Below are positions 16,532 to 21,734 of a DNA stretch of 64,000 nucleotides, piece by piece. The position numbers and the translations under genes are program-made. Source of the stretch: Streptomyces sp. MMBL 11-1 (GTDB lineage: Bacteria > Actinomycetota > Actinomycetes > Streptomycetales > Streptomycetaceae). How positions within the stretch are numbered: the stretch's first letter is position 1; each line of letters opens with the position of its first letter. The stretch spans positions 6,451,001 to 6,515,000 of the forward strand of contig NZ_CP117709.1 of the NCBI RefSeq assembly GCF_028622875.1, written 5' to 3'. Below the pieces are notes generated by a model. The model was not told the DNA's origin, did no database searches, and worked only from the letters and a program-made list of their open reading frames with translations.

Positions 16532-17014
16532 TCACGGTCCCTGGCTCGGCGGCGGGCACGGGGCGGAAGCCTCCGCGGTGTCCTCGATCAGCCGCCGGAA
16601 GGCGACCGTGTCGAAGACGTCCTCCATCCGTACGGCCCGGCCGTCGCGCAGCGTCCACGAGTGGACGAACCGCAGCGTCGCCGTCCGGCCGTACAGCGAC
16701 GTCACCTGCCGGGTGCCCAGCACGATGACGCGGTCGCCGGAGGCCACGAACTCCTGCGGCTCCAGGCGCATCCCGCCGATGACGCCCGGCACGTGCCGAA
16801 GGAAGGCCAGAACACCGGAGTGCCCGTGGCGGGTGCCGCCCAGGCCGTGATCGGCCATCCCCTCGGGGTGGACCCACTCGATGTCCGGTGCCAGGGTCTT
16901 CAGCAGCGCGTCCACGTCCTGGGAGTGAAAGGCACCGTAGGCGGCGCGGATCACGTCGACGTTCGCCGCGCCACCGGCTTCGCGGTTGTCCTGTTCGTAC
17001 GTTTCCTGGTGCAT
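16532..17014 (-). CDS. SnoaL/NTF2-like protein
   Basis: 160 residues with the NTF2-like fold: VIRAAYGAFHSQDVDALLKTLAPDIEWVHPEG (first helix to strand 1), G-x-x-G-x-F-L region, then VVLGTRQVTSLYGRTATLRFVHSWTLRDGRAVRMEDVFD. Members include polyketide cyclases (SnoaL) and limonene-epoxide-hydrolase-like enzymes as well as non-catalytic proteins. It is the last gene of the operon PPTase, A-T-TE, SDR, NTF2-like, with 16 bp after the SDR. It could act on the A-T-TE product, for example in ring closure or dehydration. That role is inference. Confidence 0.75.
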   Translation of the reverse strand: MHQETYEQDNREAGGAANVDVIRAAYGAFHSQDVDALLKTLAPDIEWVHPEGMADHGLGGTRHGHSGVLAFLRHVPGVIGGMRLEPQEFVASGDRVIVLGTRQVTSLYGRTATLRFVHSWTLRDGRAVRMEDVFDTVAFRRLIEDTAEASAPCPPPSQGP

Positions 17015-17030
17015 CGGATGCCAACGCTCC

Positions 17031-17984
17031 TCAAGGACGGATCAGGTGCTCGGGATACAGCGCTTCCAGGGTGCGGCGGATGCCGTCGCGCCAGCCGACC
17101 CGGCAGGGGCCGGTCAGTTCCTGGCGCCTGGCCGGGTCGAAGCGGTAGGTCTCCCGCGTCACCTCGCTCGGCACGAGCTTCGCCTCGACGCCGGTGAGCT
17201 CCTCCAGGTGGCGTACGCAGTCGGTCATCCCGACCGACTCGTCGCCGCCCCAGTTCACCAGCGTCGCCGGCACGGAAGCGGACCGCCACAGGTGCGGCAC
17301 GTGGGCCACCAGGTCATCGGTGTACAGAGGGGAGAGCCAGTTCTGACCGCTGACCGGCACGGGTATGGGCTCGCCCGCCAGCATGCGCTCGAAGTACAGC
17401 ATCGGCACGCCGCCGTACCCCCCGGGTCCGTACGCGATGTTCAACCGGGCGATCGTGGTGGGCAGCTCCAGGACCTGGGCGAAGGCACGCACGGTTCCCT
17501 CGGTGGCGATCTTGCCGACGGGATAGGCGGGCAGCCAGTCGGCGACGCCGTCGACCGGGTCGGACTCCGTGTACAGGTGGTCCAGACCCTGACGGGCGTA
17601 GAGGGCGCCCGTGGAGACGTACAGGAACGCCTCCGCCGTCCAGCAGTGGGTCATCAGTCGCCCGGTCGCCGTGGAGTTGACCTCGATCGCGGCGTTGAAG
17701 TCGCCGTCCTCACCGCGACGGACCGCGGAGTGGATGACATGGGTGAAGTCGTCCGGGAGGCCCTTGAGGGCCTCGCCCGACAGGTCGTCCATGTCCCACT
17801 GCCAGGTCGTGATGCCCTTCTCGTTCAGCCGGCGCTCGACGCCCGGTGCGCCGAACCGGCCGAGGCACCAGACATCGTTGTGCTCCGCGAGGGACTCCGC
17901 CACCGGACGGGCGACCTGCCCGGTGCCCCCGGTCACCAGAATCTTCTTTCCGTACACCGCTACCACGTCCTCACTTGTCGTCAT
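17031..17984 (-). CDS. Extended SDR, NAD-dependent epimerase/dehydratase family
   Basis: 317 residues. The Rossmann motif ILVTGGTGQVA is at about 15-25 and the catalytic pair is Tyr154 and Lys158 in YPVGK, with Ser124 in VSTGALY. It belongs to the extended SDR group that epimerises, dehydrates or reduces sugars and other metabolites. Its start overlaps the end of the A-T-TE gene by 14 bp, which indicates coupled expression. Reduction of a keto group on the A-T-TE product is one possible role. No sugar-biosynthesis genes are nearby. Confidence 0.85.
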   Translation of the reverse strand: MTTSEDVVAVYGKKILVTGGTGQVARPVAESLAEHNDVWCLGRFGAPGVERRLNEKGITTWQWDMDDLSGEALKGLPDDFTHVIHSAVRRGEDGDFNAAIEVNSTATGRLMTHCWTAEAFLYVSTGALYARQGLDHLYTESDPVDGVADWLPAYPVGKIATEGTVRAFAQVLELPTTIARLNIAYGPGGYGGVPMLYFERMLAGEPIPVPVSGQNWLSPLYTDDLVAHVPHLWRSASVPATLVNWGGDESVGMTDCVRHLEELTGVEAKLVPSEVTRETYRFDPARRQELTGPCRVGWRDGIRRTLEALYPEHLIRP

Positions 17985-20844: not shown

Positions 20845-20894
20845 AAGCTTCTCCGTTGCTCCGTCTGCGTGGCGAGTGGGAGTTTCTGCAGCCC

Positions 20895-21734
20895 TTACGA
20901 GGCCCGGCGAGAAATGAACGGCCGCGCGATGACATTCCTTCGGAGGCGACCGGAGATGTCCCCGGTCGATGTGCTGTTCGCTCCTTCGGCGACCGGGCCG
21001 GCCGGTTCGCCGGCCAGAGCGATGGAGGCCGTCCACCCGTCCGGCGCCCCGGCGTCGCCCACCCACCAGGTGGCCGGCGTCCCGGGCCAGGGAGCGGTCA
21101 TCCGCGCGGGTCCGGGCTTCCAGGCGTGGCTCTCCAGCGCGCCGAGACCGGAGGTGATCCCGGTCCCGACGGCCTTGAGTGCCGCTTCCTTGCGCGTCCA
21201 GCAGAGCAGGAAAGCGCGGGACCGGCCCGGCTCGTCGGGCTGGGACAGCACGAAAGTGCGCTCACGGGACGTGAGCGCGGCATCGGTCAGCTCCCTGGCA
21301 ATCGTACGGCCGTTTAGTTCCACATCAATTCCGACGTGGAATGGAGACAGGGCGAGCATCCCCAGTCCCTTTGCATGGGAGAGGCTGATATGTAAAGGGG
21401 TGCTCGGGTGAATTATGGCGGGCGGTCCGTGGTCGGCGTCTTCGTATTCCGCGCGGGGGCGTCGGCCGAGCACCAGCTCGTCTGCGGAAATCTGGAGGAA
21501 ACCAGACAAGATGCGGCGCATGGCGGCCCGGCAGATGACGAACTCCGCGGCTTTGTCGGCAGACCTGAAACGTCGCGCCCGCACGCGCTCGCTGTCGCTG
21601 AGGAGAGTCAGGTCATCCGCCATGTCCGCATCGGCTGAGACCTTCCACCACCACACCAGGGCGTCCGCGGCCTCGAACCCGTCCGGCGTGAACATGCCGA
21701 TGGGGCGCGTCGTGGCGGTACGGGCTGTAGTCAC
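20895..21734 (-). CDS. Sfp-type 4-prime-phosphopantetheinyl transferase
   Basis: 279 residues. Mg and CoA-binding motifs are GIDVEL (Asp137, Glu139) and W-T-R-K-E-A-A-L-K (Lys182, Glu183), with SLSHAKGLGMLA between the halves. It converts apo to holo carrier proteins, here most likely the ACP at 5037-5288 and the T domain of the adjacent A-T-TE protein. Leu114 is encoded by TTA (21393-21395), so translation should need the bldA tRNA. It is the first gene of a four-gene operon and could therefore gate the whole pathway. A motif and an inverted repeat lie just upstream. Confidence 0.92.
   Translation of the reverse strand: MTTARTATTRPIGMFTPDGFEAADALVWWWKVSADADMADDLTLLSDSERVRARRFRSADKAAEFVICRAAMRRILSGFLQISADELVLGRRPRAEYEDADHGPPAIIHPSTPLHISLSHAKGLGMLALSPFHVGIDVELNGRTIARELTDAALTSRERTFVLSQPDEPGRSRAFLLCWTRKEAALKAVGTGITSGLGALESHAWKPGPARMTAPWPGTPATWWVGDAGAPDGWTASIALAGEPAGPVAEGANSTSTGDISGRLRRNVIARPFISRRAS

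Follow-up and report, generated by a model that had tools for sequence, protein, structure and literature searches.

A predicted polyporic acid synthetase and its conserved place beside a cinnamoyl-lipid polyketide synthase in Streptomyces

We analysed a 64,000-nucleotide stretch of the genome of Streptomyces sp. MMBL 11-1 (assembly GCF_028622875.1, contig NZ_CP117709.1, positions 6,451,001 to 6,515,000; hereafter the window), in which one gene encodes a 957-amino acid adenylation-thiolation-thioesterase (A-T-TE) protein that is very probably a polyporic acid synthetase. With its TerB- and TerC-like companions, this gene lies near an operon with the apparent composition of a cinnamoyl-lipid type II polyketide synthase (PKS), and the pairing is not accidental, being conserved in one clade of synthetases. 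The explanation that we favour, with moderate confidence, is that of a polyporic acid synthetase within a co-regulated cinnamoyl-lipid cluster that makes two separate products. Unless stated otherwise, coordinates are those of the window, negative values lying to the left of its start.

The synthetase block spans 16532-21734 on the minus strand and holds four open reading frames (ORFs) of 160, 317, 957 and 279 amino acids; the A-T-TE order that a preliminary description, made from the letters alone, had claimed for the 957-amino acid protein is confirmed:

16532..17014, minus strand, SnoaL-like (NTF2 fold) protein of the TerC/EchC/DatC type, 160 amino acids, matching TerC (6d34)
17031..17984, minus strand, NAD(P)-dependent oxidoreductase of the TerB/EchB/DatB type, 317 amino acids, NAD-dependent epimerase family, matching TerB (6d2v)
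17971..20844, minus strand, putative A-T-TE polyporic acid synthetase of the EchA/DatA/TerA type, 957 amino acids, GTG start, assigned by Pfam, PDB matches, pocket motifs and tree
20895..21734, minus strand, Sfp-type 4'-phosphopantetheinyl transferase (PPTase), 279 amino acids (ACPS, PF01648, 1.1e-12)

Pfam placed an AMP-binding domain at residues 38-408 of the 957-amino acid protein, a PP-binding domain at 586-652 and a thioesterase domain at 680-925, which is the single-chain A-T-TE layout of EchA, DatA and TerA in their size class of ~920-960 amino acids. The best PDB matches were McyG (4r0m, 3.4e-99), presumably a phenylpropanoid-activating enzyme, followed by 6ulw (2.5e-91) and 6ulx (1.3e-86), which the search labels merely as adenylation-domain proteins and which we take to be StsA, a keto-acid-activating enzyme. 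Fatty acyl-AMP ligases (FAALs; 1.2e-28 for 3pbk) and other A domains scored far behind, so that by PDB score the A domain does not group with FAALs; such a grouping is what the preliminary description had named as adverse to its reading. The protein carries the motifs V-A-E, F, V-G, A-A-G, K, LGGTSL and GYSFG, and the pocket, LGGTSL and GYSFG residues are nearly invariant across a 107-row alignment of its relatives. The alignment columns thus give the pocket expected for keto acids, with Val at the first and an aliphatic residue at the fifth code position; the latter is Val in our protein and in 68 of the 107 rows, and Ile in 39.

The same motifs, with the pocket code VAEFVGAAGK, are described for SGL6301, which is the S. 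globisporus counterpart of EchA (PMC9381841). For fungal synthetases, PMC10316625 describes Val at the first position as the mark of keto-acid enzymes, and position 5 (Val or Ile with phenylpyruvate, Asn with 4-hydroxyphenylpyruvate) as contributing to specificity without strictly determining it. Judged by such descriptions, atromentin synthetase, TdiA, CorA, HapA and RalA share the A-T-TE layout and the keto-acid code logic of our protein; as compared with the fungal quinone synthetases, its aliphatic position 5 fits phenylpyruvate better than 4-hydroxyphenylpyruvate, and it is adjoined by TerB and TerC. The search for homologues scored 7,997 candidates and yielded at least 878 at E<=1e-60; among the best 120 of these 878, the nearest came from Streptomyces sp. 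NPDC020330 (99%) and SID4931 (85%), all others being at 69% or less. The 957-amino acid protein is the sole full-length copy in its genome, where the next match spans residues 11-679 at 35%. The enzyme itself is ordinary, one more synthetase of the EchA/DatA/TerA type.

The neighbouring genes indicate the biosynthetic branch. The oxidoreductase is identical to TerB (6d2v) at 248 of 304 aligned residues (82%) and the SnoaL-like protein to TerC (6d34) at 79 of 133 (59%), and the two genes are adjacent, as for EchA, DatA and TerA. A TerB homologue adjoins the synthetase in 65 of 79 testable loci and a TerC homologue in 54 of 76. In the terfestatin pathway, TerB and TerC turn polyporic acid into the p-terphenyl core. 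By analogy with characterised homologues, the A domain would adenylate phenylpyruvate, the T domain would carry the phenylpyruvyl unit once a PPTase, likely the one encoded next door at 20895-21734, has primed it, and the TE domain would couple two units through a Claisen-Dieckmann condensation to give polyporic acid, for conversion by TerB and TerC. The neighbours thus appear to point to the polyporic acid/p-terphenyl branch, and the furanone (RalA) branch is disfavoured because TerB and TerC adjoin the synthetase. Where the preliminary description had left the choice between a quinone- and a furanone-type enzyme, the motifs uphold the terphenylquinone half and the TerB/TerC neighbours speak against the furanone half, RalA itself being considered by description rather than by direct comparison.

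No PF00155 aminotransferase was found between genome positions 6,421,001 and 6,515,000 (none of the genome's 28 matches falls there; the search was limited to this one family), in line with the earlier remark that the window has no aminotransferase that would form an aryl-pyruvate. This is not unusual, because the daturamycin cluster is itself described as three genes, datABC, which resemble echABC and are followed by genes for an oxidase and an oxidoreductase (PMC9379647), and phenylpyruvate can probably come from primary metabolism. According to the same source, DatA, like EchA, converts phenylpyruvate to polyporic acid in vitro. Clusters of the echoside type might be widespread in Streptomyces, as suggested in PMC11074319, which compares one of them with the terfestatin/echoside cluster of strain RM-5-8.

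The ketosynthase (KS) operon extends from -5613 to 5282 on one strand (minus). The ketosynthases and acyl carrier protein (ACP) of the preliminary description are indeed there; its assignment of KS genes and synthetase to one cluster holds in that the association is genuine in related species, as detailed below, whereas the operon itself lies 11.2 kb away from the A-T-TE block and partly outside the window:

5037..5282, minus strand, ACP of the type II PKS (PP-binding, 1.5e-9)
3737..4978, minus strand, ketosynthase KS1, active-site Cys in TACAAG, HGTGT present
2601..3719, minus strand, ketosynthase KS2, active-site Cys in NACSAG, HGTGT present
1663..2604, minus strand, chain-length-factor (CLF)-like KS, Cys missing at the active-site position as read by eye
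755..1543, minus strand, alpha/beta hydrolase (domain search)
1..758, minus strand, 4HBT_2 (hot-dog) protein, gene running on to -261 (domain search)
down to -5613, minus strand, rest of the operon: a trio of small DsrE-like genes, another CLF-like KS, a further ACP, two dehydratases (DH), ketoreductase (KR), DSBA-like isomerase, MbtH

Read from -5613, the genes encode MbtH, the DSBA-like protein, a short-chain dehydrogenase/reductase (SDR), two FabA-like dehydratases, an ACP, a KS-like protein without the Cys, the three small proteins, the hot-dog protein, the hydrolase, the second Cys-less KS-like protein, the two Cys-bearing KS and the ACP that ends at 5282. With two Cys-bearing KS, two Cys-less KS-like proteins, two ACPs, one SDR, two FabA-like proteins and one DSBA-like protein, the operon matches a cinnamoyl-lipid (highly reducing) type II PKS in composition and would thus encode one; roles were assigned by gene content against published descriptions of the gla and epoxinnamide clusters, and the SDR, the sole one seen in the operon, was classed as KR.

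Evidence for a genuine pairing comes from the comparison of loci. We kept 80 of 95 relatives as loci from named genomes and called them PKS-linked when KS1, KS2 or ACP matched at >=50% within the fetched flanks, and unlinked when none did with >=9 kb on both sides. The PKS was linked in 18 of the 80 loci and absent from 48, the other 14 having flanks too short to be classed. PKS linkage is therefore not needed for synthetase function, since so many loci do without it; the preliminary description would have counted it against its idea if related strains lacked the KS operon, and this holds for these 48 loci but not for the gene's own clade. In a maximum-likelihood tree (quick search) of 107 rows, made from the synthetase in 109 loci minus three with short alignments (L068, L151 and L086) plus our protein, 23 of the 24 PKS-linked rows fell into one clade of 37 rows, supported by a Shimodaira-Hasegawa-like approximate likelihood ratio test value (SH-aLRT) of 93, with 98-99 for the next inner branches. 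That clade also contained nine rows labelled unlinked and five unlabelled ones, out of 23 unlabelled in the whole tree; the labels of rows L124-L152 were set by hand from genome searches for synthetase and KS1, and row L013 counts as unlinked even though its identical counterpart from genome G093 is linked at 20 kb. The linkage label changed 8 times on the tree as compared with 21.1 times for shuffled labels, and none of 500 shuffles was as low. Because the 24 linked rows include three identical pairs, they amount to 21 distinct ones.

Gene families around the synthetase follow the same division. Among 29 clade loci and 51 others, a LuxR-type regulator family occurred in 27 and 0, respectively (loci with at least one member of the pair described below; both members at >=45% in 26 of the 80), an acyltransferase in 18 and 1, an IclR regulator in 16 and 0, a polyprenyl synthetase in 13 and 0, the ACP in 13 and 0, and a carboxylase in 10 and 2. 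The 29-locus clade was chosen by PKS linkage after the tree had been seen, the LuxR count playing no part in the choice. Among 295 genomes of the genus, 33 had the synthetase, 79 had KS1 (E<=1e-90) and 22 had both. Synthetase and highly reducing KS (HR-KS) lay within 25 kb of each other in 6 genomes (5 without our own) versus ~0.2 expected for random places, and within 100 kb in 7 versus 0.8 expected, these gene places having been copied by hand. Close relatives do not settle the linkage, because just 3 of 41 such genomes, our own included, have the synthetase. We consider it likely that the two blocks belong to one co-regulated supercluster.

Whole-region comparisons extended this to gene sets. 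Within the 60 kb fetched from G093, most of the PKS operon, TerABC, the LuxR pair and MbtH recur in rearranged order, together with the ABC transporter, the short LysR protein, the thioesterase, the ABC1 kinase, the carboxylase, IclR, the acyltransferase and the polyprenyl synthetase (these genes are listed below); a similarity search found neither the second ACP nor the DsrE-like trio in that region. In G227 the PKS and TerABC are accompanied by the LuxR pair, PPTase, thioesterase, ABC1 kinase, carboxylase and polyprenyl synthetase, and in G255, G127 and G178 the PKS, TerABC and LuxR pair occur together, but fewer of the remaining genes do. In G006 the gene set is spread over ~90 kb with condensation (C) domains in between. 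Of the six regions fetched from other genomes that contain both blocks, five (G093, G227, G255, G178 and G006; not G127) have such domains.

A precedent for the fate of the PKS chain comes from S. globisporus C-1027. As described in PMC9381841, echA and glaE both rose when either LuxR1 or LuxR2 was overexpressed, knock-out of glaE abolished compounds 1 and 2, and knock-out of echA kept these PKS acids, with a yield that even rose; the synthetase of that strain is thus not needed for the free acids. Neither an echoside nor a hybrid was found in that study.

In Streptomyces sp. MMBL 11-1, a search with one C-domain query found no condensation domain in the window (E<=1e-5) or between -29,999 and 45,000 (E<=1e-10), so by that query the cluster lacks the nonribosomal peptide synthetase (NRPS) typical of clusters for cinnamoyl-containing nonribosomal peptides. 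Some 5 Mb from the PKS, at genome positions 1,465,668-1,500,772, an NRPS of two proteins (6,054 and 5,647 amino acids) is encoded. Its region (G000:C1:1465668-1502238, loci L188-L190) has an MbtH 72% identical to that of the operon, along with genes that, judged from similarity and visual reading, encode a P450-like protein and ABC exporters; the KS, ACP, dehydratase and isomerase of the operon had no match there. Just upstream of this remote MbtH lies a broken ketoreductase remnant that matches residues 46-117 of the operon KR at 43% and residues 197-226 at 57%, and that also matches the KRs of other fetched cinnamoyl regions. The starter C domain (1,499,462-1,500,781) resembles those of cinnamoyl clusters: five of its six closest relatives in the 295 genomes shared a contig with an HR-KS at most 56 kb away, and the sixth was on another contig of an HR-KS-bearing genome. 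Lower in the ranking the association weakens, as 9 of the 30 ranked relatives lay within 60 kb of an HR-KS, the HR-KS places being drawn from a hand-copied part of the KS1 genome list. The remote locus gives the impression of a peptide cluster whose native PKS has been lost. A split cinnamoyl-peptide pathway, in which the PKS chain would go to the remote NRPS, is plausible, and this NRPS seems a likelier acceptor for the chain than the TerA-type synthetase.

We thus lean towards two separate products rather than a joined one. The Ter cassette would belong to the cinnamoyl-lipid cluster, probably sharing its LuxR-type regulators, and the PKS would yield an o-substituted phenyl-alkenoic acid as a product of its own, which in this strain may be loaded onto the remote NRPS and not onto a terphenyl. 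Alternatively, the cinnamoyl-lipid acyl chain might be attached to the p-terphenyl core, at a hydroxyl or at a ring carbon, to make one hybrid molecule, an idea also speculated upon for S. globisporus by the authors of PMC9381841. Clade-specific retention of both blocks, the shared LuxR-type genes and the lack of a nearby condensation domain with the single query would agree with it. However, an acyltransferase would still have to be recognised for it, the alpha/beta hydrolase and the hot-dog protein being conceivable candidates; the echA knock-out of S. globisporus kept the PKS acids and no hybrid was found there; condensation domains, the ordinary chain acceptors, occur in most of the other two-block regions; and our own strain offers a rival acceptor in the remote NRPS, with its suitable starter C domain and the remnant of a ketoreductase beside it. 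We therefore regard a hybrid as doubtful. Similarly tentative is the wider idea of a joint product or obligate pair, for example a p-terphenyl that bears a cinnamoyl-lipid polyene as its acyl group, which a Streptomyces/Kitasatospora clade would make under a single LuxR-controlled programme and some members would have lost or replaced by peptides.

Two other readings fare worse. That an independent terphenyl cassette came to lie beside the PKS operon in this strain by accident of neighbourhood would accord with the 48 loci where the cassette stands alone (~9 kb on each side), the 11 kb gap between the blocks, the G055 operon without cassette, and the 16 of 22 genomes with both genes in which these are not within 25 kb (some being drafts). 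Against this stand the excess of co-localised genomes over random expectation, the strong clustering of linkage on the tree, the clade-specific LuxR family and the recurrence of most of the gene set, reordered, in G093, G227 and G006, which make an accident very unlikely. The suggestion of the preliminary description that the A domain might load an acyl starter, the A-T-TE protein then acting on a PKS-derived or fatty acyl chain, found no support beyond adjacency: the PDB neighbours and pocket motifs of the A domain, and the retention of the same motifs by the 107-row family in PKS-linked and unlinked loci, render it highly improbable.

Several observations weigh against our explanation of a polyporic acid synthetase in a two-product cluster. 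The call of polyporic acid synthetase is a prediction from sequence, the code positions were assigned by motif and not by structure, and the likeness to EchA, RalA and the fungal synthetases relies on descriptions and motifs rather than direct sequence comparison. Concerning the pairing, 48 of 80 loci have a synthetase without the PKS within ~9 kb, the linked row L059 falls outside the clade, near-copies inflate the tree counts, and G055 has a close KS operon (KS1 88%) with no TerABC in the 60 kb fetched. Concerning the products, the separate-product reading leans on one knock-out in another strain, in which no echoside was found either, and the long retention of both blocks would be odd if their products were unrelated. 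As for the remote NRPS, the ketoreductase remnant was compared with the KRs of cinnamoyl operons and not with other SDRs, and 14 of the 30 closest starter C relatives come from genomes without HR-KS, so this domain type is not exclusive to cinnamoyl clusters.

Among known systems, EchA/EchB/EchC (echosides, Streptomyces sp. LZ35), DatABC (daturamycins) and TerABC (terfestatin) have, as described, the same three-gene core and A-T-TE layout, with the same code, T and TE motifs; unlike them, the cassette studied here sits in a cinnamoyl-lipid PKS cluster. In this respect it resembles gla (cluster 26 of S. globisporus C-1027, globisporamic acids), where echABC also lies beside a cinnamoyl-lipid type II PKS (PMC9381841). 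The gla cluster, which we know by description and not by direct comparison of proteins, further shares two LuxR genes, a PPTase, a KR, two DH and an isomerase, but has three KS/CLF pairs against two KS and two CLF-like proteins here; MbtH, the second polyprenyl synthetase and the ABC1 kinase of our strain are not mentioned in its main text. The PKS of the epoxinnamide, kitacinnamycin and skyllamycin clusters is likewise similar (ACP, two KS/CLF pairs, KR, two DH and isomerase as described for epoxinnamide; PMC9321520), but such cinnamoyl-peptide clusters include the NRPS, which we found neither in the window nor in the 30 kb upstream, the candidate being ~5 Mb away. Among the open-literature matches listed, the pairing of synthetase and cinnamoyl PKS is described only in PMC9381841, most subscription papers being outside the search. 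The conserved place of the synthetase in a cinnamoyl cluster extends this single published case: tree and neighbourhood counts turn a single-strain oddity into a conserved association and raise the testable question of why two aromatic pathways stay together, and whether fermentation screens have missed a hybrid or a synergistic pair. A possible split pathway, its acyl chain made at 6.45 Mb and its candidate peptide acceptor at 1.47-1.50 Mb, would escape cluster-by-cluster mining.

The following genes lie between and around the two blocks:

6096..6782, plus strand, IclR regulator (domain search), of the clade-limited family counted above
6866..7612, plus strand, type II thioesterase (PF00975, 4.7e-46)
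7775..11103, plus strand, MacB/FtsX-type ABC transporter (ATPase 7775-8557, permease 8557-11103), both genes recurring in G093 and G006
11326..13398, plus strand, ABC1 (UbiB-like) kinase (PF03109, 1.8e-66)
13740..13994, plus strand, short LysR-type protein of 84 amino acids with only the helix-turn-helix domain (HTH_1, 1.2e-19)
14172..15734, plus strand, acyl-CoA carboxylase carboxyltransferase subunit (PF01039, 4.6e-199)
16023-16481, unannotated ORF of 152 amino acids between the operon and the A-T-TE block
22516..23256, plus strand, first LuxR-type regulator of a pair (GerE at 20 of 23.5 bits, just under the Pfam cut-off)
23595..24467, plus strand, second regulator of the pair, in the BLAST family of the first (in Pfam only Regulator_TrmB, 1.8e-5)

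The carboxyltransferase subunit corresponds to the malonyl-CoA supply gene of the preliminary description, a role predicted from its domain; copies of 82-84% occur in G093, G227 and G006. The ABC1 kinase has matches of 43-71% in five of the eight fetched regions (G093, G227, G255, G006 and G055k), and the 84-amino acid LysR-type protein is 82-95% identical in G093, G255, G006 and G055k, unusually conserved for its size. The regulator pair was likened to LuxR1/2 of S. globisporus by position alone. Upstream of the operon, a polyprenyl synthetase gene (L010 8180-9229, window -6820 to -5771) is a second copy, 47% identical to the next paralogue. We dropped its interpretation as a housekeeping gene; since it is a second copy and its family is clade-limited (13 of 29 loci versus 0 of 51), it is likely a cluster gene, either a supply enzyme or a resistant version of a target being the options considered.

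Within the operon, three consecutive small genes (L010 13556-14734, window -1444 to -266) deserve mention. The one adjoining the hot-dog gene matches DsrE (Pfam, 9e-7). An 88% homologue of the middle protein has an AlphaFold2 model (predicted local distance difference test, pLDDT, of 80.9) with a fold like those of YchN, DsrE, DsrEFH and TusBCD, and its family keeps three Cys (C46, C95 and C98) in 25 of 25 rows. The third protein (138 amino acids, no Pfam match) has relatives in 22 of the 295 genomes, with homologues of cinnamoyl-PKS-operon genes within a few kb at 23 of 24 places besides its own, the exception (G055) being beside an NRPS. Domain match and modelled fold of the first two suggest a sulfur-relay-like complex inside a polyketide operon; among the open-literature matches listed, we found none tying DsrE to cinnamoyl or PKS systems.

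An aromatic type II PKS block lies further upstream (-29957 to -9675; L009 and L010). We considered the KS operon as a part of it and rejected this, the block having its own KS, acyltransferase and sugar genes. It encodes a KS, an acyltransferase, a cyclase, HMGL-like and KAS III proteins, an AMP-ligase (FAAL-like via a DIP2-like domain), an NDP-hexose 2,3-dehydratase, a P450 and a 772-amino acid YcaO protein, its KS partner and ACP being identified by eye. On the other side of the A-T-TE block, ORFs at 30108-36244 look, by eye, like a hydroxyproline-type catabolic set (FAD oxidase, FAD/NAD oxidoreductase, aldolase-like and proline-racemase-like proteins).

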